Shown one piece after another: positions 621 to 13,364 of a DNA stretch of 64,000 bases (positions are counted from its first letter, which is position 1; the number at the start of each line of letters is the position of its first letter). The DNA is from Nesterenkonia sp. Act20 (GTDB lineage: Bacteria; Actinomycetota; Actinomycetes; Actinomycetales; Micrococcaceae). The translations under genes and the position numbers were made by a program. The stretch spans positions 1,518,391 to 1,582,390 of the forward strand of contig NZ_JADPQH010000001.1 in the NCBI RefSeq assembly GCF_019173455.1, read 5' to 3'. A model generated the notes under the pieces. It was not told the DNA's origin. It saw only the letters and a program-made list of their open reading frames with translations, and did no database searches.

Positions 621-1953
621 GGAGCCTCTCCCATTCGCTCTGTACGGTGTCCAGGGTCTCCTGGGCAGAATCGCGCTGTTCGGAGAGATGAGCCGCGATC
701 TCATCGGTGAGCACCTGTGCCGCCTCCGTGGCGTTCTCCCCAGTGGGCCAGGCCAGAGCGCCGTCAAGGGTGGACTCGTTGACCTCCTGGAGCTGCGGGA
801 AGTCCTCCGAGTAGGTCTCGTCCTCGAGGGAGGTCACTCGGTTGGGGTCGATCCCTGTCGGAGGAAGCGCTGTCAGCAGCTCTGCGTTGACCTCGGCCGA
901 GGCCGCCCAGGTGATGAACTGCTGGGCCAGGTCGGACTTGTCGGTGTTTCCCGCAACCACCCAACTGAAGCCAGCCACGAGTGAGGCGCGAGGACGCTCA
1001 CCCTCTTCGGCTCGGGGAAGATAGGTCACACCCCATCCATCTGCCACTTCTGAGCCGGATTCGGGGTCCTGCGAGCGCACCCCGAGGTCCGTCCAGTTCT
1101 CGATGAACCCGACATTGCCGGCGAACCACGCCGAGTTGCCGGCGCCGAAGTCGGTCTCGGCGGGAGTGGGCAGCGCATCTTCCCAGACGTCTTCAAGGGC
1201 TTCCAGGGACTGCACTGCTTCCTGCGAGTTGATCACCGGTCGGCCTTCCCCATCCAAGAAGTCCCCGCCGAACCCGGCCAATCGGTTGGCAAAGCTCGCG
1301 CCGAGGATCATCGGCGACTGTTCGCCGAACACCGCTGCGCCGTAGACGCCATCCCCGCCCTCGTTCTCAGTGATGGTGCTGACCTGTTCGGCGTACTCGT
1401 CCCAGGTGGCGGGGGGTTCCTGGAAGCCATTGCGCTCAAGGATCTCCTCGTTGTAGAACAACGCGTGGATGTCGCCGTCGAAGGGGAGTCCGTAGATCTC
1501 CTCATCGACCAGTGCATAGGGTTCCCAGATGCTGGGGATGAAGTCCTCCACGTCGATCTCCGGGGTGGATTCCACGTAGTCGGTGAGCGGGGCGATGCTG
1601 CCGTCGGCAGCCAGATCGCCGAGGGAGACGTACCAGGGAGCTGAGACATCGTAGGTGTTGGCCCCTGACTGCTGGTCCAGGGTCAGCTGAGAGGCGATCT
1701 CGTCATAGGGGACGGTGGTGACGTTGATCTGCACGCCCGTCTCCGCCTCGTATTCTTCCGCAAGCCATTCGCCGGCTCCCTCGTGGGAGGCATTGAGCAG
1801 CAGATTCAGCTCCTCGCCGTCATAGTCTCCCGACGCCGCGTCGCCCTGGGACTGCGCCCCGGCGTCGGCGGAGCAAGCTGTGAGCGCCACCACGGAGAGG
1901 ACGGCTGCGAGCGCGAGGGGTGCGTGCCGGGGGATGGAGTTCTTGGTAGGCAT
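610..1953 (-). CDS. Extracellular solute-binding lipoprotein (family 1) of ABC importer
   Basis: This 447-residue protein captures the substrate outside the membrane and delivers it to the permease encoded next. The N-terminus is a lipoprotein signal with lipobox LTAC (Cys near residue 27). The mature part shows family-1 traits such as the segment YGLPFDGDIHALFYN and the C-terminal hinge region with WVVAGNTDKSDLAQQF, as in maltose/glycerol-3-phosphate type binding proteins. It is the fourth gene of a minus-strand operon that begins with a SAM-clan riboswitch and three flavin monooxygenase genes. An organosulfur substrate, possibly a sulfonated sugar or other sulfonate, is therefore my inference; classical sulfonate binding proteins belong to another family. 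The start is ATG with AGGAC upstream. Confidence 0.88.
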   Translation of the reverse strand: MPTKNSIPRHAPLALAAVLSVVALTACSADAGAQSQGDAASGDYDGEELNLLLNASHEGAGEWLAEEYEAETGVQINVTTVPYDEIASQLTLDQQSGANTYDVSAPWYVSLGDLAADGSIAPLTDYVESTPEIDVEDFIPSIWEPYALVDEEIYGLPFDGDIHALFYNEEILERNGFQEPPATWDEYAEQVSTITENEGGDGVYGAAVFGEQSPMILGASFANRLAGFGGDFLDGEGRPVINSQEAVQSLEALEDVWEDALPTPAETDFGAGNSAWFAGNVGFIENWTDLGVRSQDPESGSEVADGWGVTYLPRAEEGERPRASLVAGFSWVVAGNTDKSDLAQQFITWAASAEVNAELLTALPPTGIDPNRVTSLEDETYSEDFPQLQEVNESTLDGALAWPTGENATEAAQVLTDEIAAHLSEQRDSAQETLDTVQSEWERLLVD

Positions 1954-2054: not shown

Positions 2055-3518
2055 TCAGTGGGAGCTCAGCAGTGCCTCGCGGGGCACCTCTGTGGCCTGG
2101 GCGCTCAGGTGCCTGAAGGCTCCCCGATACTGCGCGGCAGGATGTGTCTGCGGCAGTCGATCGGCTCCGGTGAGGCGCTGGCGAAGGGTGTCCGACGGCG
2201 CAGCGCTCTCCTCGAGTTGGCGGGCAAGTCCGCGGTCACGCAAGACCGGCAGGATGTGCTCGATGAACTCGTCATAGCTGCCAGGGATCGTCGAGTTGAT
2301 GACGTTGATCCCGTCGATGCCCGAGTCCTGCCAATCTGCCAGCTCTCCGGCGATCTGCTCGGGAGTGCCCACCACACGAGTGGACTGCGCCCGGAACCTG
2401 GCGAGATCCCGGAGTGTGACGCGGCCGTTCGGGGCCATCTTCTTGATCTCCTCCAGATGGCCCTGGGCCTGTTCTGTGTGTTCGAGCTCCTCGAGGGGCG
2501 TATCGATGGGGAGGTGCCCCACGTCTACGCCGAGACTTCCCGCCGTGTGCGCGATCAGCGCGTGATCGTCGATGGACTCATCAAGTTCGGCGGCCTTCTC
2601 AACAGCTTCGGCCTCCGTGGAGCCGACCACGAAGGACAGGCCCTGGATGAAGCTGACGTCCTCGGGGGATCGGCCGAAGCGACGCGCCCTGGCTTTGACG
2701 TCGGCGGCGTGAGCTGCAGCGATATCTCTGCGAGGGGCCATGGAGAAGGTTGCTTCGGCATGTTGTGCTGCGACGTCGCGGCCGCGATCCGATGAACCGG
2801 CTTGGAAAAGGAACGGGGTCCGCTGAGGCGAGGGTGCCACCAGGTGTGGGCCCTCCACGCTGTAACGCGGGCCCACGTGGTTGATCTTTGACACCAGAGC
2901 CGGATCCGCGTGGAGCCCTCGGCCGCGGGGATGCTCCGTCTCTTTGTCCTGCCTCAGTGCCTCGTCGCCCCAGGAACCCTCCCAGAGCTTGTAACAGACG
3001 TCGAGGTATTCCTCGGCCCACGCGTATCGGTCGTCATGGCCTGCGAGACCGGTGGCATCGAAGTTGCGGTGGGCATTCTCCTGGGCGCTGGTCACCACGT
3101 TCCATCCCACTCGTCCGCCGGAGAGGTGGTCAAGAGTGGAGAGCTGGCGGGCGAAGCTGAACGGGTGCGCCTGGATGACCGAGGATGTCAGGGCCAAGCC
3201 GATCCGATCTGTGACCGCGGCCAAGGCCGAGAGCAGCACCAACGGATCGTTCGACGGGACCTGGAGTCCACGGCGCACATGGGAGGCCCAACCGCCCTCG
3301 TGATTGCCGTAGAGACCTACTACGTCGGCGAAGAATGCGATGTCGAATCCTGCACCCTCGAGCTTCTTCACCAAGGAGGTCCAGTGGCTGAGTTCGTTGA
3401 ATCGATGTTGTTGGGCCTCTTCGCGGCGCCAGGCTCCCCCGATGATGTGGCTTGTGGTGTTCATCAGGAAAGCCGAGAGGATGAGCGGCTTGCGGGGCAT
3501 AGAGCTACTCCGGTTCAT
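2055..3518 (-). CDS. LLM-class flavin-dependent monooxygenase (NtaA/DszA/DmoA type)
   Basis: This luciferase-like monooxygenase uses reduced FMN supplied by a separate reductase. Relatives cleave C-S, S-oxide/sulfone or C-N bonds (DszA, DmoA, NtaA). Features typical of the group are LSAFLMNTTSH at the N-terminus, GRVGWNVVTS near residue 135, the family's conserved DDRYAWAEEYLDVCYKLW segment and FLFQAGSSDRGRDVAAQHAE. The length of 487 residues is somewhat long for the family because of a C-terminal extension. The ATG at 3518 overlaps the upstream stop as ATGA; a second Met lies at 3500. It follows two acyl-CoA-dehydrogenase-fold monooxygenase genes, the same pairing as DszC with DszA, so a two-step desulfurisation is plausible. 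The actual substrate cannot be read from the sequence. Confidence 0.88.
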   Translation of the reverse strand: MNRSSSMPRKPLILSAFLMNTTSHIIGGAWRREEAQQHRFNELSHWTSLVKKLEGAGFDIAFFADVVGLYGNHEGGWASHVRRGLQVPSNDPLVLLSALAAVTDRIGLALTSSVIQAHPFSFARQLSTLDHLSGGRVGWNVVTSAQENAHRNFDATGLAGHDDRYAWAEEYLDVCYKLWEGSWGDEALRQDKETEHPRGRGLHADPALVSKINHVGPRYSVEGPHLVAPSPQRTPFLFQAGSSDRGRDVAAQHAEATFSMAPRRDIAAAHAADVKARARRFGRSPEDVSFIQGLSFVVGSTEAEAVEKAAELDESIDDHALIAHTAGSLGVDVGHLPIDTPLEELEHTEQAQGHLEEIKKMAPNGRVTLRDLARFRAQSTRVVGTPEQIAGELADWQDSGIDGINVINSTIPGSYDEFIEHILPVLRDRGLARQLEESAAPSDTLRQRLTGADRLPQTHPAAQYRGAFRHLSAQATEVPREALLSSH

Positions 3519-4750
3519 GTGTAGAGAGAGATGGGCTGGAACTCGCCATTGAGGAAGTGCGCGCCGACCTCGAGCTTCTTGTAGTCCACGGGGTCGTGCA
3601 GCGAATGGGTGCGGATATTTCGCCAGTAGAGGTCGAAACCGTGCTTCGAGGCCGTGGAGGACGTACCCGTCGCCTCGAAGATCTGGTGCGTGAGGCGGGT
3701 GGCGACATCGGAGGAGACCACCTTGAGTTCGGCGATCTCGATGGCGAGCTCCCCGCGGACCGACTCAGTGACCGTGTCTCCCAATGTCAGTACCTGCTCA
3801 AACCTCTGGTTGACCCGTTCGGCAAGGGCGGCGACCCCGGCGGTGAAGGCCTTGAGTTCGCCGAGAAGACGCTGAACGAAGGGGTCATGTCGGTACTGCG
3901 AGGCGGTGGAGAGGAACCAGGCGTTGGGGCGGGCATTGATCAGCTCGCGCCCCTTCGCAAGTGCACCCTCCGCGATTCCGAGGTACAGATTGCCGAAGGC
4001 AAGCTGGATCCCCGGAGTGACCAGCGATGAGTAGGGCTCCTCAGACAGGAAACCGAGAACGTCCTGCTCCTGGACCTGCACGCTGTTGAAGATCACGGTG
4101 TTGGAGGATGAAAGACGCTGGCCCAGGAAGTCCCAGTCGTCCAGGTAGGTGACTCCCTCGCGGCCGTTCTCCAGGACGAAGGCCAGGACGCGTCCACTTT
4201 CGGGACCTTCGGAGACGCGTGCGTTGACCAGCAAGACATCTCCGACGGCGGAGCCTGTGGCGTACCGCTTGCGTCCGCTGAGCCGATATCCGCTCTCGCT
4301 CGGAGTCAGAGTGAGATCCGGATCTGTCGGATTGACCGCGTCGCCCCAGACCCATTGCTCTCGAGCCGTGGCGCGCAACCAGCGTTCGCGGTTCCCAGGC
4401 TCTGGGATGCCGAAGACGATGTTGGCCTCATTGACGTAGTGGTATGCCAAGAGCTGCGCGATGGACGCGTCGGCCCGAGCGATGATTCTCACGGCCTCCA
4501 GGGCGGTGGCCCAGTGGCCGCCACCACCACCGAACTCGCTTGGGACCAGCAGAGTGACCAAGCCGGAGGCCTTCAGAAGCTGGGTCTCGCGGTAGGGGAT
4601 CTCGTTGGCGCGGTCGCGTTCGACGGCGTCCTGGGAGAGAGTCTGCGCCACATGGGTGGCGATGGATCTCCAGTCCTCAAGTTCTGCGGCCGAGGCGCCT
4701 GCGCTCCAGTGGGTGCGGGCTTCTGTGCTGATGGGCGAAGGGTATGACAC
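3515..4750 (-). CDS. Acyl-CoA dehydrogenase-fold flavin monooxygenase (DszC/SfnB-like)
   Basis: This 411-residue protein has the acyl-CoA dehydrogenase fold. Members without the catalytic dehydrogenase glutamate (DszC, SfnB) act as reduced-flavin monooxygenases on organosulfur compounds. Visible markers are LVPSEFGGGGGHWATAL (N-domain), YATGSAVGDVLLVNARV and DDWDFLGQRLSSSNTV (beta domain; the D-W-D-x-x-G-x-R pattern is usual in SfnB/DszC members), and FEATGTSSTASKHGFDLYWRNIRTHSLHDPVDYKK at the C-terminus (flavin-facing Arg-Asn-x-Arg-Thr-His). It starts with GTG behind GGAGG. It sits 86 bases downstream of a paralogue and overlaps the LLM gene, all in the SAM-riboswitch operon. I infer S-oxygenation with flavin from the reductase encoded divergently. 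Confidence 0.85.
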   Translation of the reverse strand: MSYPSPISTEARTHWSAGASAAELEDWRSIATHVAQTLSQDAVERDRANEIPYRETQLLKASGLVTLLVPSEFGGGGGHWATALEAVRIIARADASIAQLLAYHYVNEANIVFGIPEPGNRERWLRATAREQWVWGDAVNPTDPDLTLTPSESGYRLSGRKRYATGSAVGDVLLVNARVSEGPESGRVLAFVLENGREGVTYLDDWDFLGQRLSSSNTVIFNSVQVQEQDVLGFLSEEPYSSLVTPGIQLAFGNLYLGIAEGALAKGRELINARPNAWFLSTASQYRHDPFVQRLLGELKAFTAGVAALAERVNQRFEQVLTLGDTVTESVRGELAIEIAELKVVSSDVATRLTHQIFEATGTSSTASKHGFDLYWRNIRTHSLHDPVDYKKLEVGAHFLNGEFQPISLYT

Positions 4751-4836: not shown

Positions 4837-6051
4837 TCAGACGAGCTGGGTGACGGCCGAAACGTCTGGTTCGCCCACGCTCCATAGCCGCACCGGCTCG
4901 GTGCCGTTGACGCGGTAATCTCCGGCTATCCGCGCCTTGTACACCCAAGGGTTATGACTGGTGACCGTGCGTGCGTTGCGCCAATGACGGTCGAGACCTC
5001 GAGTCTGGCTGACTCCCGAGGCGCCTAGCACGTCGAAGATGCGCGTGACAGCTTCCAGCGCCGGTCGGTGCAGCGCCACCTGGGCGCGTCCCGTGGACAG
5101 CTCGGCGGCGTTGGCGGCAGCGATCGCTTCCTCCGGCCCAGAGGTGCGCGTGGCGAACGCTGCGTCGAGATACGTGGCAGTGTGAAGGACCTGCGCCCTG
5201 GCCAGCTCCGCGACCGCGTCCACCTCACCGATCGCCTGGAGCAGCTGAGGGTCCGTGCGGGGTGTGCGGGTGTTGGCGTGGGTGTAGGTGCGGGGACGCT
5301 CGTGCAGCAGTGCCGCCGCATCCCGCGCTGCGGCTTCGACGATCCCGGCCAAGACGATCAGCAGGATGTGCTGATACAGGGCCGTCTGGTAGGGGAAACG
5401 GTCCGTCAGTCCACGCAGCTCCGAGGTCTCCACCGCGGCATCGGAGAGCCGCGCCGTCCCTGACCCTGTAGTGCGCTGACCGAATCCGTCCCAGTCATCC
5501 TCGATCTGGACACCGGGCTGATCCCGACGAACCAGCACCGCGAGCTCATTGTCGTCGGCGTCCCGGGCTGTGACGTCGAGCCAGTCCGCGAAGATCGCCC
5601 CGGTTGTGTAGTACTTGACTCCGTTGACCACGGGCCCTGCCGAAGTCTCACTGACAAGCGTTCCCGACCGGTGAAAGCCACCCTTGCCAGGCTCGGTCCA
5701 GGCGTTGCCCACCAGTTCACCAGCGGCGAGACGCGTCAACCAGCCCTGCACAGGCCCTTCCGCGGCGGGGCGCCAGAGCAGGTCCTCCTCCACCGCAAAG
5801 TGCCCGCGCAGCACCTGAGGAAGGTTGCTGTCCTGGGCTGCGAGCTCCAGGAGCACCACACTGGTCTGCACCCAGTCGAGCCCGCTGCCTCCGGAGGACA
5901 CCGGAAGTCGCAGCCGACCGATGCCGGCGTCGGCGAGAGTGCGGACCTGTTCACGCGCCAGTTCCCTGTGGCATTCACGGTCCAGGGCAGAAAGCCCGGC
6001 GCGCTGCACAGCGTCTCGGAGTCCATCAGAGACAGGCAGATATATGTTCAT
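4837..6051 (-). CDS. Acyl-CoA dehydrogenase-fold flavin monooxygenase, first gene of sulfur operon
   Basis: This paralogue of the next gene is a second SfnB/DszC-type protein. It keeps LPVSSGGSGLDWVQTSVVLLELA in the N-domain, YYTTGAIFADWLDVTARD and DDWDGFGQRTTGSGT in the middle, and FDVLGASGVSQTRGLDRHWRNARTVTSHNPWVYK at the end. I chose ATG at 6051 (protein begins MNIYLPVSDG, 404 residues) because GGAGG lies 5 bases upstream; a longer reading from 6081 would run into the riboswitch. The SD is joined to the 3' strand of the riboswitch P1 helix, so SAM binding could block initiation directly. Having two acyl-CoA-dehydrogenase-fold enzymes suggests either successive oxidations or different substrates. 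Confidence 0.85.
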   Translation of the reverse strand: MNIYLPVSDGLRDAVQRAGLSALDRECHRELAREQVRTLADAGIGRLRLPVSSGGSGLDWVQTSVVLLELAAQDSNLPQVLRGHFAVEEDLLWRPAAEGPVQGWLTRLAAGELVGNAWTEPGKGGFHRSGTLVSETSAGPVVNGVKYYTTGAIFADWLDVTARDADDNELAVLVRRDQPGVQIEDDWDGFGQRTTGSGTARLSDAAVETSELRGLTDRFPYQTALYQHILLIVLAGIVEAAARDAAALLHERPRTYTHANTRTPRTDPQLLQAIGEVDAVAELARAQVLHTATYLDAAFATRTSGPEEAIAAANAAELSTGRAQVALHRPALEAVTRIFDVLGASGVSQTRGLDRHWRNARTVTSHNPWVYKARIAGDYRVNGTEPVRLWSVGEPDVSAVTQLV

Positions 6052-6059
6052 ACTTTCCT

Positions 6060-6140
6060 CCATCGATTCTGGCGGTAGCACCCGGCAATCCCGGGTTGCT
6101 GCGACATCGACGGGCCAGATCCCTCAGTCGCTCTGGATGG
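6060..6140 (-). ncRNA. SAM-I-clan riboswitch in leader of monooxygenase/ABC operon
   Basis: On the minus strand the leader reads CCATC (P1, 6140-6136), then GAGCGAC, the kink-turn-like TGAGGGA, loop TGGCCC, GTCGC closing P2, the core GCAACC, a P3 hairpin ACCCGG/CCGGGT, the core GGTGCTA, then CCGCCAGA and GATGG closing P1 (6064-6060). GCAACC and GGTGCTA are SAM-I hallmarks, and GGC in the P2 loop can pair with GCC as the clan pseudoknot. No clear P4 is seen, so a SAM-I/IV or SAM-IV-like subtype is possible. The last GG of P1 is the first GG of the GGAGG ribosome-binding site (6061-6057). This suggests translational repression when S-adenosylmethionine is plentiful. Confidence 0.88.
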
Positions 6141-6151
6141 TGATGGGCTCA

Positions 6152-6182
6152 AATATAGAGGACAAGCATGCTGTTTCGTCAA
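6152..6182 (-). promoter_or_regulatory. Candidate promoter of minus-strand sulfur operon
   Basis: TTGACG (6182-6177 on the minus strand) and TATATT (6157-6152) are separated by 19 bases; a 17-base spacing to TCTATA is also available. Transcription would begin close to 6145, just before the riboswitch aptamer. Confidence 0.5.
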
Positions 6183-6204
6183 ATGATCATGACGCCACAT
6201 GTCG

Positions 6205-6237
6205 AATTGTGTTCACTCGTCAGCTCTGAACACAATT
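6205..6237. promoter_or_regulatory. Perfect 11-bp dyad between divergent sulfur operons (candidate operator)
   Basis: AATTGTGTTCA (6205-6215) and TGAACACAATT (6227-6237) are exact reverse complements separated by 11 bases. The right arm overlaps the putative -35 of the plus-strand promoter, and the left arm is about 25 bases upstream of the minus-strand -35. This is the shape expected of a dimeric regulator site. No regulator gene is adjacent, so the protein is unknown. Confidence 0.55.
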
Positions 6238-6265
6238 GACGCGCGGGAGGATCTGGACGTCATAT
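6236..6265 (+). promoter_or_regulatory. Candidate promoter of plus-strand sulfur operon
   Basis: TTGACG (6236-6241) and TCATAT (6260-6265) are separated by 18 bases. A start near 6272 would leave about 58 nt before the riboswitch aptamer at 6330. The -35 overlaps the right arm of the dyad. Confidence 0.45.
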
Positions 6266-6329
6266 GGCGTCTCACAGTGCGAACAAATCTTGCTGCTCGA
6301 CGGTGCGACCCCGTAGCTTTGACTCGTAA

Positions 6330-6410
6330 CCATCCCGAGCGGCTGAGAGATCTGGCTCAGAGACGCCGCAGCAACCCGGATATGCCGGGTGCTAACGCCA
6401 GGACCGATGG
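6330..6410 (+). ncRNA. SAM-I-clan riboswitch in leader of flavin reductase-acs-metY operon
   Basis: This is the sister of the riboswitch on the other strand. P1 is CCATC (6330-6334) with GATGG (6406-6410). P2 is CGGC/GCCG with the TGAGAGA kink-turn-like element and a TGGCTC loop. The core GCAACC is followed by P3 ACCCGG/CCGGGT, core GGTGCTAA and CGCCAGG, whose GCC can pair with GGC of the P2 loop. There is no evident P4. As on the minus strand, the last GG of P1 is the start of the ribosome-binding GGAG (6409-6412), so both operons seem to use the same P1-sequesters-SD design. Confidence 0.9.
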
Positions 6411-6421
6411 AGTTGATTGAC

Positions 6422-6952
6422 ATGTCTGTCCCTGCTCGTATTTTCGAAGATCCTGCGGCCGCATCTCGCGTGGACTCCTTTGCGCTGCGCCATGCCCTCG
6501 CCCAGTTCCCGCAGGGCGTGGTCGCCGTCGGCGCTGAGGTCGACGGCTCCCCCGAGGCGATCATCGCGTCCACCTTCACGGTGGGGGTCTCCTTGGAGCC
6601 GCCGCTGGTCACCCTCGCCGTGCAGCACGATTCCTCCACCTGGCCCAAGCTCGCGCGAAGCGGCAAAGAGCTGGGCATCTCCGTGCTCGGCCGGGATCAG
6701 AACGGGCTCTGCCGGCAGATCGCCTCGAAGGACCGCGCGAACCGTTTCACCGGGGTGGAGTACCGGTTCCACGGTTCCGCCCTGCTGCTCGAGGGCGTGC
6801 CGATGTGGCTCCGTACCCGCATCTATGACGAGGTCAGAGCCGGGGACCACGACATCATCGTGCTGGAGATCCTGGATCTGGGCTTCACCGAGGACGCTGC
6901 CGGGCTGGTCTTCCACCAGCACAAGTTCAAGACCCTGACCCCCCTGAGCTGA
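6422..6952 (+). CDS. Flavin reductase family protein (partner of the monooxygenases)
   Basis: This 176-residue FMN-binding split-barrel protein should reduce FMN with NAD(P)H for the two-component monooxygenases encoded divergently. The signature runs from LRHALAQFPQGVVAVGAEV through ASTFTVGVSLEPPLVTLAVQHDSSTWPKL to GISVLGRDQNGLCRQIASK. The C-terminal part HDIIVLEILDL is usual for the HpaC/DszD-like family. I place the start at ATG 6422 (MSVPARIF), 9 bases after GGAG; earlier in-frame codons at 6389 and 6407 lie inside the riboswitch P3/P1 and are unlikely. It is the first gene of the riboswitch-controlled plus operon. Confidence 0.9.
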   Translation: MSVPARIFEDPAAASRVDSFALRHALAQFPQGVVAVGAEVDGSPEAIIASTFTVGVSLEPPLVTLAVQHDSSTWPKLARSGKELGISVLGRDQNGLCRQIASKDRANRFTGVEYRFHGSALLLEGVPMWLRTRIYDEVRAGDHDIIVLEILDLGFTEDAAGLVFHQHKFKTLTPLS

Positions 6953-6969: not shown

Positions 6970-9075
6970 TTGACCACCTCGCACTCCCCTGCCCTGACCA
7001 CAGCTGCGCCCTCTGCGGCGGCGCAGCGAGCTGTGGCCCTCGCAGACCCGCAGGCCGCCGATGTCCACAACTGGGCCGATCCGACCGACGAGGACCAGCG
7101 CCTGGCGTTCTGGTCCGAGGCCGCCACTCTGCTCGACTGGGAAAAGGCCTGGGAAAGCACTCACACCTGGACCCCACCGAACCCAGACACAAAGCGCGGC
7201 CCAAAGATCGGCTGGTACGAAGGCGGGACGCTCAATGCGGCCGTGAACTGCGTGGATCGCCACATCGCCGCAGGCCGAGGGGAGAAGATCGCGCTGCACT
7301 TCGAGGGTGAGCCCGGCGACCGTGAGGACGTCAGCTATGCCGAGCTTGGCCGCCGAGTCAACCAGGCGGCCAATGCCCTGACCTCTATGGGCATTGCCCG
7401 CGGGGACCGTGTGGTCATCTACCTTCCGGTCCTGGTGGAGACCATCGTGGTCACGCTGGCCTGCGCCCGGATCGGCGCGGTGCACTCGCTGGTCTTCGGC
7501 GGCTTCTCGGCCGAGGCGCTGAAGTTCCGCGTGGAGGACACCGGGGCGAAGCTGCTGGTCACCACGGATGGTCAGTTCCGCCGCGGCAAGGCAGTCCCGG
7601 TGAAGGCCAATGCTGACGCCGCCGTGGCCGAGGCAAGCGCGGAGCACGGCGGCAACCTCGAGCACGTGCTGGTCATCAACCGCACCGACTCCGTGGTGGA
7701 GTGGACTCACGGGCGTGACCTCTGGTGGCACGAGGTCGTGGAGACCGCCTCCACCGAGCACACACCCGAGTTTTTCGACGCGGAGACCGAGCTGTTCATC
7801 ATGTACACCTCCGGGACCACCGGAAAGCCCAAGGGACTGGTCCACACCACCGGCGGCTACCTCACCGGCGCGCTCTACACCTACCTGAGGCTCTTCGCCC
7901 ACCCCGATCCGGCGCGGCGCACCGAGGATGTTCACTGGTGCACAGCCGACCTCGCCTGGGTCACCGCGCACACCTATGAGATCTACGGACCGCTGGCTGC
8001 CGGGGCCACCCAAGTGATCTTCGAGGGCACCCCGAACACCCCGCATGAGGGCCGCCACTTCGAGATCATCGAACGCCATAAGGTCACCACGTACTACACC
8101 GCCCCGACCTTGGTGCGCTCATTGATGGGCTGGTTCCCCGAGGGCGTCCCGGCCCAGTACGACCTCTCTTCGATCCGGCTCGCCGGTACGGTGGGCGAGG
8201 CCGTCAACCCCGAAGCCTGGCACTGGATCCGCCGCGAGATCGGCCGAGACACCACCGACGACGCCGGCCAGCCCGCCCTTCCCATGGTGGACACGTGGTG
8301 GCAGTCCGAATCCGGGTCCACGGTGCTCTCCCCGCGCCCGGAAGACCGTGACTTCAAGCCCGGCGCGGCCACGCGCGAACTGCCCGGCTGGGGCGCCGCC
8401 GTCGTCGATGATGCGGGCCGGACCGCACCTGCCGGGACGCAGGGAAACATCGTGCTCACCCATACCGGACCCTCCATGGCGCGCACGGTCTGGGGAAATC
8501 CGGAACGATATTTCACCTCCTACTGGGAGAAATACGCTGATCAGGGCTGGTTCCTCGCCGGAGACGGCGCCCGCAAGGATGAGGACGGTGACATCTGGAT
8601 CCTGGGACGGATCGATGACGTCATCAACATCTCCGGGCACCGGCTCTCCACGATCGAGATCGAATCTGCGCTGATCTCCCACCCCGACGTGGTCGAGGCC
8701 GGGGTCTGCCCGGTCTTCGATGAGATGACCGGACACGCCGCCGTCGCCTTCACTGTGCTGACCACCGCCGCCCGCGAGCGCCTGGAAGCCGCGGGCGGGG
8801 CGGGAAGTGAGACTGAACGTGAGCTGCTGAATGCGCTGCGCCATCACGTGGGCGAGGTGATCGGACCGGTGGCGAAACCGCGCAGCGTGATCCCGGTGCC
8901 GGAGGTGCCGAAGACCCGTTCCGGGAAGATCATGCGCCGGCTGCTGACCCAGCTGCATGACGGTGAGACCCTCGGGGACACCACGAGCCTGCAGAATGAA
9001 CCCTGTGTTCCGAAAATTGAAGAGATCTGCCAACGGCGCGGGACCGCGCCGAGAAAAGAAGAGGTAGCTCCATGA
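6970..9075 (+). CDS. acs: Acetate-CoA ligase (acetyl-CoA synthetase, AMP-forming)
   Basis: This enzyme activates acetate to acetyl-CoA through acetyl-AMP. It has the Acs-type segments VFGGFSAEALKFRVEDTGAK, the P-loop-like YTSGTTGKPKG, VDTWWQSESGS (the Trp that shapes the acetate pocket; usual form WWQTE), the hinge GRIDDVINISGHR and the catalytic lysine region TRSGKIMRR. The 701 residues are about 50 longer than usual. The start is TTG at 6970 with GAAGGA upstream. It ends in an ATGA overlap with metY. MetY releases acetate, so within a SAM-riboswitch operon this enzyme may serve to recycle it to acetyl-CoA for homoserine acetylation; that role is inferred. Acyl specificity other than acetate (propionate) cannot be excluded. 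Confidence 0.9.
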   Translation: MTTSHSPALTTAAPSAAAQRAVALADPQAADVHNWADPTDEDQRLAFWSEAATLLDWEKAWESTHTWTPPNPDTKRGPKIGWYEGGTLNAAVNCVDRHIAAGRGEKIALHFEGEPGDREDVSYAELGRRVNQAANALTSMGIARGDRVVIYLPVLVETIVVTLACARIGAVHSLVFGGFSAEALKFRVEDTGAKLLVTTDGQFRRGKAVPVKANADAAVAEASAEHGGNLEHVLVINRTDSVVEWTHGRDLWWHEVVETASTEHTPEFFDAETELFIMYTSGTTGKPKGLVHTTGGYLTGALYTYLRLFAHPDPARRTEDVHWCTADLAWVTAHTYEIYGPLAAGATQVIFEGTPNTPHEGRHFEIIERHKVTTYYTAPTLVRSLMGWFPEGVPAQYDLSSIRLAGTVGEAVNPEAWHWIRREIGRDTTDDAGQPALPMVDTWWQSESGSTVLSPRPEDRDFKPGAATRELPGWGAAVVDDAGRTAPAGTQGNIVLTHTGPSMARTVWGNPERYFTSYWEKYADQGWFLAGDGARKDEDGDIWILGRIDDVINISGHRLSTIEIESALISHPDVVEAGVCPVFDEMTGHAAVAFTVLTTAARERLEAAGGAGSETERELLNALRHHVGEVIGPVAKPRSVIPVPEVPKTRSGKIMRRLLTQLHDGETLGDTTSLQNEPCVPKIEEICQRRGTAPRKEEVAP

Positions 9076-10367
9076 GCGATCGCCAGTTCGGCTTCCGCAC
9101 CCGCGCCCTGCACGCCGGGGCCGTCCCCGATGCCGTCTACGGTTCGCGTGCTGTGCCCATCCACCAGTCCACCTCCTTCGTCTTCAAGGACACCGCAGAC
9201 GCGGCGAACCTGTTTGCGCTGCAGAAGTACGGCAACATCTACTCCCGCATCGGCAACCCCACGGTCTCGGCCCTGGAGGAGCGTATCGCCTCATTGGAAG
9301 GCGGCATCGGCGCGGTGGCCACCGCCTCGGGGATGAGCGCCGAGTTCCTCGTCTTCGCAGCGCTGTGCGGCTCCGGAGACCACATCGTGGCCAGCTCCAA
9401 GCTCTACGGCGGCACCATCACCCAGCTCGACGTCACGCTGCGCCGATTCGGCATCGAGACCACGTTCGTGGACTCGCTGGAGCCTGCCGACTACGAGTCC
9501 GCGATGCAGGAGAACACCAAGGTGGTCTACACCGAGGTGGTCGCAAACCCCAGCTCAGACATCGCGGATCTGCGTGGACTCTCCGAGGTCGCACATGCCC
9601 ACGGCGTGCCCCTGGTGGTGGACTCCACCCTGACCACCCCGTACCTGATCCGCCCCTTCGAACACGGCGCCGACATCGTGATCCACTCGGTCACCAAGTT
9701 CATGGGTGGTCACGGCACCACCTTGGGCGGGGTCATCGTGGAATCCGGCGAGTTCCCGTGGGACAACGGGAACTTCCCGGCGATGACCGAACCGGTGGCC
9801 TCCTACGGAGGACTCTCCTGGTGGGGCAACTTCGGTGAATACGGCTTCCTCACCAAGCTACGCGCGGAGCAGCTGCGTGACATCGGACCCTCGCTGGGCC
9901 CGCAGGCGGCGTTCAACCTGATCCAGGGCATCGAGACCCTGCCGCAGCGCATCGATGAGCACGTGGCCAATGCGCAGAAGGTCGCGGAATGGCTTGAAGC
10001 CGATGAGCGCGTGGACTATGTGAACTATGCGGGACTGCCCTCTCATGCGGACCATGCCCGCGCCAAGGAGATGCTGCCCAAGGGTGTGGGCTCGGTGTTC
10101 AGCTTCGGCATCCGGGGCGGGCGCGAGACCGGGGCGCGCTTCATCGAGTCGCTGCAGCTTGCCAGCCACCTGGCTAATGTGGGTGATGTGCGCACACTGA
10201 TCCTGCACCCGGGATCCACCACCCACCAGCAGCTCTCCCCCGAGCAGATGAGCGCCGCCGGCATTCCGGAGGACCTGATCCGCATCTCAGTGGGCATCGA
10301 GGACGTCGATGACATCATCTGGGACCTGGACCAGGCGCTGAGCACCGCAGTCGAAGGAGACAAGTGA
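9072..10367 (+). CDS. metY: O-acetylhomoserine sulfhydrylase (O-acetylhomoserine aminocarboxypropyltransferase)
   Basis: This PLP enzyme joins sulfide (or methanethiol) to O-acetylhomoserine, giving homocysteine (or methionine) plus acetate. At 431 residues it has the length typical of MetY. Visible are FGFRTRALHAG at the N-terminus, YSRIGNPTVSALEERIASLEGG, PLVVDSTLTTPYLIRPFEHGADIVIHSVTKFMGGHGT (Schiff-base lysine in SVTKF) and the C-terminal LASHLANVGDVRTLILHPGSTTHQQLS. It begins inside the acs stop (ATGA) and is followed immediately by a CoA-binding protein gene. SAM-riboswitch control is expected for the last steps of methionine synthesis. Confidence 0.95.
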   Translation: MSDRQFGFRTRALHAGAVPDAVYGSRAVPIHQSTSFVFKDTADAANLFALQKYGNIYSRIGNPTVSALEERIASLEGGIGAVATASGMSAEFLVFAALCGSGDHIVASSKLYGGTITQLDVTLRRFGIETTFVDSLEPADYESAMQENTKVVYTEVVANPSSDIADLRGLSEVAHAHGVPLVVDSTLTTPYLIRPFEHGADIVIHSVTKFMGGHGTTLGGVIVESGEFPWDNGNFPAMTEPVASYGGLSWWGNFGEYGFLTKLRAEQLRDIGPSLGPQAAFNLIQGIETLPQRIDEHVANAQKVAEWLEADERVDYVNYAGLPSHADHARAKEMLPKGVGSVFSFGIRGGRETGARFIESLQLASHLANVGDVRTLILHPGSTTHQQLSPEQMSAAGIPEDLIRISVGIEDVDDIIWDLDQALSTAVEGDK

Positions 10368-10903
10368 TGAGCGAGCAGACCGTGCCGAACGACGCCGAGA
10401 CCACAGCCGAACATCCCCATGGCCGTTGGGCCGCGCCGTCGCCCTCGCGACGCCTGCAGCTGCTGCGCAGCGCGAAGTCAGTGGCGATCGTGGGCATGTC
10501 GGACAAGCCCGCGCGAGCCAGTTACTTCGTGGCCACCTATCTGATGAGCTCCTCGAGCTACACGGTCTACTTCGTGAACCCGCGACTCAAGGAGGTGCTG
10601 GGCCAACCGGTCTACGCCTCGCTGAAGGATCTTCCCGAGGTGCCGGACATCGTGGACATCTTCCGCCGTGCCGAGGACGTTCCCGCCATCGCGGAAGAGG
10701 CCGCCGAGATCGGCGCGAAGACGATCTGGGCGCAGCTCGGCATCCAGTCTGAGGAGGCCATGCAGCTGGCGCAGGACGCAGGGCTCAACGCGGTCCAGGA
10801 CCGGTGCATCAAGATCGAACACGGCCGCTTCCACGGGAACCTGCACCTCTCCGGCTTCAACACCGGGGTCATCTCGGCGAAGCGGCAGATCCTCGACGGC
10901 TGA
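10367..10903 (+). CDS. CoA-binding domain protein (YccU-like)
   Basis: This 178-residue single Rossmann-like CoA-binding domain has SAKSVAIVGMSDKPARASYFVATYL near residue 30, VYFVNPRLKEVLGQPVYASLKDLPEVPDIVDIFRRAEDVP and AKTIWAQLGIQSEEAMQLAQDAGLNAVQDRCIKIEHGRF, the standard order of the YccU/CoA_binding_2 family. The exact biochemical role of the family is unknown. The start is ATG at 10367 in a TGATG overlap with metY; a GTG three bases earlier is also possible. It closes the sulfur operon, and only 7 bases separate its stop from that of the convergent sortase gene. Confidence 0.88.
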   Translation: MSEQTVPNDAETTAEHPHGRWAAPSPSRRLQLLRSAKSVAIVGMSDKPARASYFVATYLMSSSSYTVYFVNPRLKEVLGQPVYASLKDLPEVPDIVDIFRRAEDVPAIAEEAAEIGAKTIWAQLGIQSEEAMQLAQDAGLNAVQDRCIKIEHGRFHGNLHLSGFNTGVISAKRQILDG

Positions 10904-10910
10904 GGGTCTG

Positions 10911-11846
10911 TTATTCCCGGCGTTGCGCTTGCGTCGGCCGAGCCGCTGACTTCACTCGCCAGATATAGACGAGCTGCAACGCCAGCGCTCCGAACAGGAT
11001 CAGGGCCCACCAGGGGAACGGAAGCACGAAGGGCTCAGTATCGTATGTCTCCTCCTCCTGCGTGGGGGTCGTGGTGCGCTCTGCCGTGACCAGGATCCGA
11101 TGGGTGTTCAACCCCAGCGGAGTGCAGGTCACCAGCGTGACGAGGTCACGCCCTGCCTCGGGGTAGAGCGACTCGGTCTCCTGCGGCTCCACCACCTGGG
11201 TGCGAATGACTTCATAGGTCAGGGTCTCGCCGAAGGTCTCCACAGAGAAGGTGTCCCCCTCCCCCACCTCATCGAGCCGGGTGAACATCTCCGCGCTGGG
11301 AAGTCCGCGGTGCCCGGTCAGCACGGAGTGGGTCCCCTCCCCGCCTACGGGCAGCGCCGTGCCCTCGAGGTGACCGACGCCGCGGGCCAGAATCTCTTCG
11401 CTGGTGCCATGGAAGATCGGCAGGTCCGCGTCGATGCTGGGGATCGTCAGCCGCGCCATCACGTCCCCGGGGGCACCCGAGAGCAGATCCCGGTAGAGCT
11501 CCTCCTGTTCGACGCCGAGGCCCTCCTGCCGAGCTGCCTGAGTGGAGAACGGATCGATGAGTCCTGAACCGGAGGTAAGGCCTTGGTTGTACTGCTGGGC
11601 GCGTTCGACCTCGGCGGCGAGTTCCTCCTCCGGAGCCTCGCGCATCGACTCCGAGTAGTCATCCACCTGCCCCTGCTGCTCCCACGCGGTGAACCACTGC
11701 GCCGCGCTGGGATAGAGCATCAGAGCGACACCCAGAACGAGCATCGTGGAGACCATGAGGGCGCCACGGACGCCGCCCTGCGCCTGACTCGGGGTCGAGT
11801 CAGGCGCAGGGGCAGCATGCCGAGGAGCGGGGGCGAGGACCGACAT
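10911..11846 (-). CDS. srtC: Class C (pilus-polymerising) sortase
   Basis: This 311-residue membrane transpeptidase builds the pilus shaft from the pilin encoded upstream. It has a cytoplasmic N-terminus, a first membrane helix (VSTMLVLGVALMLYPSA), the class C lid motif DPF (in SGLIDPFS), the catalytic His in LTGHRGLP, the catalytic Cys in TLVTCTPLG, the Arg in NTHRILV, and a second C-terminal helix with WWALILFGALALQLVYIW, as is usual for class C. It lies 12 bases after the major pilin gene on the same strand, the order adhesin-shaft-sortase known from Actinomyces fimbrial operons. Confidence 0.94.
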   Translation of the reverse strand: MSVLAPAPRHAAPAPDSTPSQAQGGVRGALMVSTMLVLGVALMLYPSAAQWFTAWEQQGQVDDYSESMREAPEEELAAEVERAQQYNQGLTSGSGLIDPFSTQAARQEGLGVEQEELYRDLLSGAPGDVMARLTIPSIDADLPIFHGTSEEILARGVGHLEGTALPVGGEGTHSVLTGHRGLPSAEMFTRLDEVGEGDTFSVETFGETLTYEVIRTQVVEPQETESLYPEAGRDLVTLVTCTPLGLNTHRILVTAERTTTPTQEEETYDTEPFVLPFPWWALILFGALALQLVYIWRVKSAARPTQAQRRE

Positions 11847-11858
11847 CGGTTGGCTGGA

Positions 11859-13268
11859 TCAGACCGCGCGAGCGAGCCGACGACGGCGGCTGCGGTTGAC
11901 GAGCAGCGCGGTGGCAACGAGCAGCAGGCCAGCGAGCAGGAAGGGCAGCGAGCCGAAGGAACCGGTGATCGGCAGAGCGAAGCCGGAGACCTGCTCGTTG
12001 TTGAAGGTGACCACGTTGGGATGCGTCGAGTCTCCCCCCACGGTGTTCGTGTCTGCGGCGACAACCTCGAAGTTCCTGGCCTGCGCGGGGGTGTAGCCGG
12101 CGGGGGCACCGGTCTGGACGAGGTAGTACCGTTCGCCGACGCGGATGCCGGGGATCATCAGCTCACCGTTGTCCTGTGTGGTGAATGAGGTGCGTCCATC
12201 GACTTCGATCGGGTCGCCATCCTGAGTGCGCCGAAGCTCGAAGGTCGCGCCGCTGAGCGGTGCGTCCTCAGCATCGTTCATGATGACCCGCACCGCACCC
12301 CAATCACTCTCGGCTGCGGCCGGGCGGGTCTCGGCGTCGTTGACCTGGACCGTGGCCTGGGCGCCGACGATCCCCTTCTGGTCCTCGTTCGCAGTCATCT
12401 TCGTCGCGACGGTGAGCTCGACCGGTTGACCCTGGTATGCGTCCAACCCTGTGGCGCCCTCAGGCGGGGCGACTGTGAGCATTCCATTGCTGGCGTTCAC
12501 CGAGTACTGTCCGCGCGGAATCTCCATCCCACCGACACGGAGGGTGACATCGTTCGGAGTCGGGGTTGTCAGGTGGTCAGTGAGATTGAGGGTGATCGAA
12601 TAGGTGTTCAGCGACTGATTGGCGGGCAGGTACGGGATGCTCGTGGTGACCTTCCAGTCGATGGTGCCTGTGCCGTTCATGCCGAACGCCCGGGAGTCGT
12701 CGGCCACCATGTCGAGGCTCACTACTGAGTTCTTGGGGTACGCGTGGACGTCGTAGAGCCAGTCTCCGCTCACCCCTGCCGTGGGGACGCTCACCAAGAA
12801 TGGGGCGGTCGGATGCACGACATCGTTGTCACCGAACCCGGTCTCCTCCACCAGGTACAGCCCCAGGGGCAGGCCGCTCTTTGATCCGATCCCGCTGGCG
12901 TCGGTCTTCACAGTATCGACCACGGTCTTGGCCCGATCGGAATCCACGGTGATCCCCTCCATGGCCGCCCACCCTTCCGCCGTGCGTAGATCGATCCCAT
13001 CGAACCTGCTGATGGTGAACTGCACCCCCTCGAGGGGCGAAAGTCCTGCGGTCATGGAGGGGGCAAGCTCCTGACCCTGGTGCTCGGCGCCATCGGTCTC
13101 GGTTTCAGCGAACTTATGGATGGTGATCGAGCCGGTCCGTGTCTGGTCGATGTTGGCGGGGCCGGGGGCAGCCTGGACCGGGGCCACGCCGCTGAAGAGC
13201 AGGGCGAAGGCTCCGATCAGGGCGGCCACCGAGATGGTGGAGCGCCGGGCGATGTGAGATGGGGACAT
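11859..13268 (-). CDS. LPXTG-anchored major pilin, SpaH/EbpB (FimP) family
   Basis: This is the shaft subunit of a sortase-assembled pilus, 469 residues. It has a signal peptide (cleaved after PVQA), an N-terminal domain GSITIHKFAETETDG, the pilin motif DWLYDVHAYPKN (W-x3-V-x-A-Y-P-K; usual form WxxxVxVYPK, whose Lys is the sortase acceptor), a C-terminal prealbumin-like domain ATFELRRTQDGDPI with GERYYLVQTGAPAGYTP, then the sorting signal LPITG, a hydrophobic helix and RSRRRR. The E-box normally reads YxLxETxAPxGY; here the glutamate that catalyses the isopeptide bond is Gln (VQTGAPAGY), whereas the first domain has a Glu-containing GLYLVEETGFG. It is expected to be polymerised by the adjacent sortase. 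Confidence 0.94.
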   Translation of the reverse strand: MSPSHIARRSTISVAALIGAFALLFSGVAPVQAAPGPANIDQTRTGSITIHKFAETETDGAEHQGQELAPSMTAGLSPLEGVQFTISRFDGIDLRTAEGWAAMEGITVDSDRAKTVVDTVKTDASGIGSKSGLPLGLYLVEETGFGDNDVVHPTAPFLVSVPTAGVSGDWLYDVHAYPKNSVVSLDMVADDSRAFGMNGTGTIDWKVTTSIPYLPANQSLNTYSITLNLTDHLTTPTPNDVTLRVGGMEIPRGQYSVNASNGMLTVAPPEGATGLDAYQGQPVELTVATKMTANEDQKGIVGAQATVQVNDAETRPAAAESDWGAVRVIMNDAEDAPLSGATFELRRTQDGDPIEVDGRTSFTTQDNGELMIPGIRVGERYYLVQTGAPAGYTPAQARNFEVVAADTNTVGGDSTHPNVVTFNNEQVSGFALPITGSFGSLPFLLAGLLLVATALLVNRSRRRRLARAV

Positions 13269-13364
13269 GGCAGGTCCTTTCGGTGCTTTTCCAAGGAGGA
13301 AGCGGTGCGAGCGAGTAATCGTGCGAATGATGTGAGTCGTCGGATAAAGGGGTGAAGAGCTGAT

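Follow-up and report, generated by a model that had tools for sequence, protein, structure and literature searches.

Divergent P4-less SAM-I aptamers ahead of two predicted sulphur-scavenging operons in Nesterenkonia sp. Act20

Two aptamers between divergent operons

We analysed a 64,000-nt stretch (the window) of the 2.93 Mb genome of Nesterenkonia sp. Act20, in which two operons run outward from a shared intergenic region (Table 1). The first gene of the left operon is 96% identical to a gene of an uncultured Nesterenkonia, and its start (ATG at 6051) was set by the N-terminus MNI-LPV, which is conserved in relatives. An Rfam cmscan placed a SAM-I aptamer (RF00162) ahead of each operon, with scores (58.3 bits left, 54.2 bits right) above the family cut-off of 44.4 bits. 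The E-values refer to 64 kb searched on both strands with 4227 families, and the best clan member alone is reported. The first-pass annotation, made from the letters alone, had described two SAM-I-clan aptamers of the same architecture in divergent orientation. The covariance models bear this out, as RF00162 is significant at both places. Genome searches with RF01725 and with RF00634 (150 of 785 candidates scored for the latter) do not report them. The aptamers point away from each other with 183 nt between the model matches, and together they form an 84-nt inverted repeat whose arms are 82% complementary and 187 nt apart.

Table 1. Features of the divergent locus, in window coordinates. R1 is our own covariance model of the P4-less form.
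Feature	Position	Strand	Evidence
Left SAM-I aptamer, P4-less, leader of SfnB-like operon	6057..6143	-	RF00162 58.3 bits, E 6.6e-11; R1 96.3 bits (R1 built with this sequence)
Right SAM-I aptamer, P4-less, leader of flavin-reductase operon	6327..6413	+	RF00162 54.2 bits, E 1e-9; R1 96.4 bits (R1 built with this sequence)
SfnB-like flavin-dependent oxidoreductase, first left gene	4837..6051	-	TIGR04022 234.1 bits, below cut-off 430.9
DszC/SfnB-like oxidoreductase	3515..4750	-	NF043015 265.4 bits, below cut-off 850
NtaA/DmoA-family FMN-dependent monooxygenase	2055..3518	-	TIGR03860 466.7 bits, cut-off 279.7
Flavin reductase, first right gene (scanned as 6389-6952)	6422..6952	+	PF01613 98.1 bits, cut-off 27; MSVPAR start conserved
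Acetate--CoA ligase family protein	6970..9075	+	TIGR02188 740.6 bits, cut-off 724.95
O-acetylhomoserine/O-acetylserine sulfhydrylase family	9072..10367	+	TIGR01326 589.2 bits, cut-off 495.1
CoA-binding domain protein, last right gene	10364..10903	+	PF13380 139.2 bits, cut-off 22.8
Putative left promoter: TTGACG (6182-6177), 19 nt, TATATT (6157-6152)	6152..6182	-	blocks invariant 9/9
Putative right promoter: TTGCTG (6290-6295), 18 nt, TAGCTT (6314-6319)	6290..6319	+	TTGC.G, CGTAGC.T invariant 9/9
Left P1 5' strand CCAUC	6136..6140	-	pairs with 6064-6060
Left P1 3' strand GAUGG	6060..6064	-	GG opens SD GGAGG (6061-6057), 5 nt before ATG 6051
Right P1 5' strand CCAUC	6330..6334	+	sequence coordinates
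Right P1 3' strand GAUGG	6406..6410	+	GG opens SD GGAG (6409-6412), 9 nt before ATG 6422
Left kink-turn (6126-6124 UGA, 6111-6106), P2b, loop	6106..6126	-	PK-1 CUGG 6118-6115, partner CCAG 6072-6069
Right kink-turn (6344-6346 UGA, 6359-6364), P2b, loop	6344..6364	+	PK-1 CUGG 6352-6355, partner CCAG 6398-6401

RF00162 has four matches in the genome, arranged as two divergent pairs with 12 kb between them. The other pair is found just beyond the window (locus L080, 12211-12310 on the minus and 12432-12543 on the plus strand; G000:C1:1512210-1512542). It separates genes for MetN-, MetI- and MetQ-like proteins and an SfnB-like protein from genes for SsuB-, SsuA- and SsuC-like proteins; SsuA scores above its cut-off and the rest below. 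Judged from these annotations, the gene content of both pairs fits sulphur uptake and release, functions that would be shut when SAM is plentiful. Also in the window is a pilus-like operon (10911-16112, minus strand). It encodes a sortase of class C (266 bits against a cut-off of 160), a major pilin of the SpaH/EbpB family (253.5 bits against 95) and a protein of 915 aa that has no NCBIfam match and at the end of which an LPQTG motif was seen by eye.

Among nine hand-chosen intergenic regions of the SfnB / flavin-reductase pair, the blocks invariant in 9/9 are AATATAGA and CGTCAA on the left side and TTGC.G and CGTAGC.T on the right. We infer that these blocks are the promoters TTGACG-N19-TATATT and TTGCTG-N18-TAGCTT; the only site called by a promoter consensus scan lies within the right coding start, and neither conserved block was called. 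With the promoters as read, the predicted transcript starts lie no more than about 10 nt from P1, and the aptamer would make up nearly the whole leader.

Two further elements lie in the shared promoter region. One is an inverted repeat at 6205-6237, AATTGTGTTCA / TGAACACAATT, whose perfect 11-nt arms are separated by 11 nt. Both arms, TGTGTTCA/TGAACACA, occur in 4/9 aligned relatives and the left half in 7/9; the repeat is a candidate transcription-factor operator acting on top of the riboswitches. The other, GTCTCACAGTGCGA at 6269-6282, is just upstream of the putative right -35 and nearly unchanged in 9/9 relatives. A similar TGTCTCA...GTGA block is found in most of 11 aligned regions of other divergent pairs, and the GTCTCACAGTGCGA element is possibly the site of a sulphur regulator.

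Anatomy, spread and pairing of the aptamers

Each window aptamer consists of P1 (CCAUC/GAUGG), a P2 that a kink-turn (UGA opposite GA) splits in two, the pseudoknot PK-1 (CUGG/CCAG) and P3 (GCAACC/GGUGC). The GCAACC, P3 CCCGG/CCGGG and GGTGCTA elements are present as first described. The pseudoknot, at first given as GGC/GCC, is better written as the 4-bp CUGG/CCAG.

We scored this structure, including the pseudoknot, on an alignment of 22 sequences that contains both window copies (A3). The kink-turn G and A on both sides and the GCAACC/GGUGC core are invariant in 22/22 rows. P2 pairs in all cells, as does PK-1, whose four pairs are formed in 100% of cells with a two-sided change at one pair. 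Two-sided changes occupy 47 cells (18.6 in shuffles), affect 12 pairs (shuffled mean 6.9) and fall in P2, P3 and the pseudoknot, and 86.7% of cells pair (81.2% in shuffles); each of these values was reached in 0/500 shuffles. Further pair types in the same alignment were not above chance (21 vs 19.8; 178/500 shuffles). Covariation in the 5-bp P1 is slight, as four of its five core pairs never vary, and P1 is thus backed by complementarity rather than covariation. Pairs that would lengthen P1 fail to form in A3 (3/98 in 1/22 rows, 2/99 in 6/22 and 9/92 in 0/22). Read by eye, the window sequence just downstream shows no obvious partner for the 5-nt P3 loops.

The stretch from GGTGCT to GATGG is 12 nt in both window copies and holds no P4, which confirms what had been noticed at first sight. 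The comparable stretch measures 23-34 nt in 30/30 class-level loci, which are top RF00162 scorers and thereby biased towards P4-bearing forms. P4 is also missing from 29/31 RF00162-selected loci (L003-L033) of this genome and 98 relatives. The two that carry it, L018 and L029 (both 1522-1611, minus strand), are Nesterenkonia aptamers in other genomic places with 19 nt between pseudoknot and P1, so both forms exist within one genus. Among 103 unique aptamers, collected with a pattern drawn from the P4-less form itself, the gap from pseudoknot to P1 is 2-4 nt in 100 and 19 nt in two, and the remaining one (L096 +566) is P4-less by reading. RF00162 scores are 46-67 bits in relatives vs 81-93 bits in the 30 P4-bearing class loci.

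We then searched more widely with R1, whose training included both window copies. At E<=1e-6 it has matches in 113/248 genomes of the order and 119/296 of the phylum, and P4-bearing forms are among its lower-scoring matches, as the model detects these too, at 33.5-54.6 bits (30/30). Reading of the fetched order loci gave 25/26 P4-less (23 by script, plus L146 and L156) and one without an anchor. The script sorted 29 phylum loci into 16 P4-less, 6 with P4, 5 with no anchor and 2 with none; L157 and L160 were read as P4-less. Both sets were picked by a P4-less model and therefore yield no frequencies. One R1 match lies in Corynebacterium otitidis (L042 4889-4987, plus strand, 84.1 bits), where a P4-less aptamer stands upstream of a close SfnB relative (61% identity); gene and aptamer were perhaps acquired there by horizontal transfer.

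Across 30 Nesterenkonia genomes R1 gave 120 matches, at least one per genome, of which two bear P4 and two score <50 bits. Divergent pairs <600 nt apart number 36 and occur in 24 of the 30 genomes, 12 of which have at least two pairs; the same genomes have one case of same-strand neighbours and no convergent one. The partners, labelled by best BLASTP hit to four references, vary between SfnB / flavin reductase, MetN / SsuB, MetN / flavin reductase and SsuB / flavin reductase. A divergent pair from a different family of the class, its members 164 nt apart, combines a P4-less SAM-I (60.7 bits) with a SAM-IV (103.8 bits) (L164, 1501-1590 minus and 1755-1869 plus). The arrangement thus stems from shared regulatory need and from the reshuffling of operons, each with a switch of its own. 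A SAM-IV / SAM-IV divergent pair is also listed (G141:C16:1956-2073 minus and 2175-2291 plus).

Register of P1 with the Shine-Dalgarno sequence

In both copies P1 ends in the GG with which the Shine-Dalgarno (SD) sequence begins (Table 1), as the first-pass annotation had read it. Only this GG lies inside P1 and the rest of the SD is outside; in the right leader the SD runs on as GGAGUUGAU. The gap from GAUGG to ATG is 8 nt on the left and 11 nt on the right. The same register holds in relatives, where GGAG or GGGAG starts at the last GG of P1 in 74/81 leaders with an assigned start and in 89/101 in all (the 101 exclude L049 -1420, L050 +7727 and L050 -1480, which did not fit the pattern). With the 16S tail as anti-SD yardstick, the longest match in the leader overlaps P1 in 62/81 cases vs 21.8% with shuffled spacers. 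A scan of 5950-6500 found 0 terminator-like sites, although a type without a U-run would be missed, in agreement with the original view that there is no separate expression platform.

We consider it probable that the locus carries two P4-less SAM-I riboswitches, each heading one of two divergent sulphur-scavenging operons, in which a SAM-stabilised P1 blocks the SD. SAM would be the ligand by analogy with the family. With an aptamer that is approximately the whole 5' leader, S-adenosylmethionine would bind the P1/P3 core and stabilise the 5-bp P1 (CCAUC/GAUGG), and, since the SD starts with the GG of the P1 3' strand, translation would then be blocked. At low SAM, P1 would open and both operons would be translated. 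Each switch, then, most likely masks the ribosome-binding site of its own leader while S-adenosylmethionine is abundant.

Folding calculations were uninformative on this point. In partition functions the SD guanines are unpaired at 15.1% in 101 leaders vs 17% at 41 control sites, which were picked by pattern in the window and some of which overlap. Accessibility is no higher than in these controls, so the calculation does not demonstrate an open SD without SAM, and a thermodynamic proof of SD opening was dropped. Averaged within gene groups, the probability of the native P1 is 0.02-0.11. The native fold exceeds the minimum by 2.2 kcal/mol in the left and 5.7 kcal/mol in the right leader, with tertiary and ligand energy not counted. 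In the minimum-energy fold of the left leader the same SD GG pairs with CCGUCGAU of the P2 region. The minimum-energy folds of the bare leaders miss the native aptamer and have z-scores of -0.76 and -0.86, so single-sequence folding is no evidence here.

Alternative readings and comparison with known systems

The subtype had been left open at first because P4 was lacking, a trait shared with SAM-IV in the excerpts of PMC6890682 drawn on here, and the aptamers might on that ground be SAM-IV or SAM-I/IV. We regard this as extremely unlikely. RF00162 is the best clan member in cmscan, RF01725 has no match at E<=10 anywhere in the genome, and in a genome search with RF00634, which scored 150 of 785 first-look candidates, the window places are not reported and the one place over cut-off is 1290658-1290787 (97 bits), a true SAM-IV. 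The window P2 is split by a kink-turn and PK-1 is present, unlike SAM-I/IV as characterised in the same excerpts. R1 scores no higher than 10.9 bits at SAM-IV places (11/31 SAM-IV loci at E<=10) vs 33.5-54.6 bits on 30/30 P4-bearing SAM-I, and on these scores we also rejected the idea that the P4-less SAM-I is close sequence kin of SAM-IV. Judged by covariance models and retained motifs, with RF00162 passed, RF01725 and RF00634 silent here, kink-turn and PK-1 kept and P4 absent, both window aptamers are SAM-I, in a variant without P4 and not as textbook members. The likeness of the twins had in turn been ascribed to duplication with inversion or to strong convergence, and the 82% inverted repeat of 84 nt would suit a recent inverted duplication of one leader. 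That history is very unlikely, and was rejected on core identities and on the labels of the tree. The two window cores are 82.2% identical, the ordinary level between SfnB-type (left) and flavin-reductase-type (right) cores across genomes (mean 81.9%, n=320), and 81% of the 5050 pairs among 101 aptamers (mean 86.1%, sd 5.0) equal or exceed the window pair in identity. Against other genomes, the left copy shares 98.6% identity with the nearest SfnB counterpart, and the right copy matches flavin-reductase counterparts at 100%. When 54 labelled cores are placed on a tree, 14 changes of gene label are counted, vs a mean of 30.2 and a minimum of 24 in 500 shuffles, and a mixed SAM-I / SAM-IV divergent pair exists. 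On these sequence comparisons, the twins are alike as members of one family are, and a recent inverted duplication is not the source of the likeness; all these aptamers may still share an ancient origin.

For the two SAM-I aptamers, action mainly on transcription, through intrinsic or Rho-dependent termination or RNA decay, is an unlikely alternative to control of ribosome access. Occlusion of translation can trigger Rho-dependent termination in GC-rich bacteria, and terminators without a U-run would escape the scan. The scan nonetheless found no terminator-like site in 5950-6500, and P1 abuts the start codon, with about 8-12 nt from GAUGG to ATG. It is similarly doubtful that the SD is blocked in both states and needs a further factor to open, such as uncharged tRNA, a protein or cotranscriptional timing. 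The computed SD accessibility is low, and a precedent exists in the Xanthomonas SAM-I switch, where binding of uncharged initiator tRNA frees the SD (PMC7270179, in part). The control SDs were computed to be equally closed, however, and the accessibility calculation therefore does not discriminate between the two readings. Occlusion of the SD by a SAM-stabilised P1 is the reading we retain.

The SAM-IV of this genome (L130 2159-2288, minus strand, 97 bits) precedes an O-acetylhomoserine/O-acetylserine sulfhydrylase gene (TIGR01326, 604.5 bits). One sulfhydrylase gene of the genome thus stands behind a SAM-IV and another in the right operon, under the predicted control of SAM-I.

The twins would let two adjoining operons answer one signal via independent RNA switches, and the divergent pairs would define a sulphur-scavenging regulon across Nesterenkonia with predicted gating by SAM. 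A wider proposal, which we hold tentatively and at somewhat less than even confidence, is that P4-less SAM-I is a distinct SAM-I subclass across Actinomycetota. Its 5-bp P1 would double as SD clamp, the aptamer would be approximately the entire leader, and neither P4 nor the PK-2/P5 that stand in for it in SAM-IV would be needed. With such modular leaders, divergent twins that share a promoter region and each gate half a sulphur regulon could arise repeatedly with different partners, even as SAM-I facing SAM-IV. If the P4-less form binds SAM well, it would be a natural minimal SAM-I and the structural role ascribed to P4 would need revision. It would then also provide a comparison case for SAM-IV, which likewise lacks P4 but has PK-2 and P5.

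A partial literature search, with the primary papers on SAM-IV and SAM-I/IV outside it, found no account of P4-less SAM-I or divergent twins, and no Nesterenkonia riboswitch was found in the literature searched. The family and its mode of action are known; what is less familiar is the P4-less form and its recurrent pairing back to back. Occlusion of the SD directly by P1 belongs to the known part, on record since 2007: in the excerpted text of Barrick & Breaker 2007 (PMC2258182), direct translation attenuation in SAM-I places the ribosome-binding site in the 3' side of P1, as here, and is commonest in Actinobacteria and Cyanobacteria; the same excerpts mention no P4-less aptamers or divergent twins. 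With SAM-IV the window aptamers share the lack of P4, PK-1, the clan, sulphur genes and occurrence in the same genome, but SAM-IV has PK-2, P5 and a different kink (PMC6890682, in part), and RF00634 is silent at the window places. With SAM-I/IV they have clan and core in common, whereas SAM-I/IV is described with P4, an undivided P2 and no PK-1 (PMC6890682 and PMC2864571, both in part). The closest match is SAM-I itself, whose traits include P4, the kink-turn and no further pseudoknot (PMC7270179, in part). The window copies pass the RF00162 gathering score and keep the kink-turn in P2, PK-1, the GCAACC/GGUGC core and the P1-P2-P3 order, but differ in a 5-bp P1, a compact P3 without the usual bulge and the lack of the P4 hairpin, for which they are filed as a variant. 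Overall, we conclude that the window pair represents a P4-less SAM-I variant, widespread in Actinomycetota, that probably works by the known direct translational mechanism.
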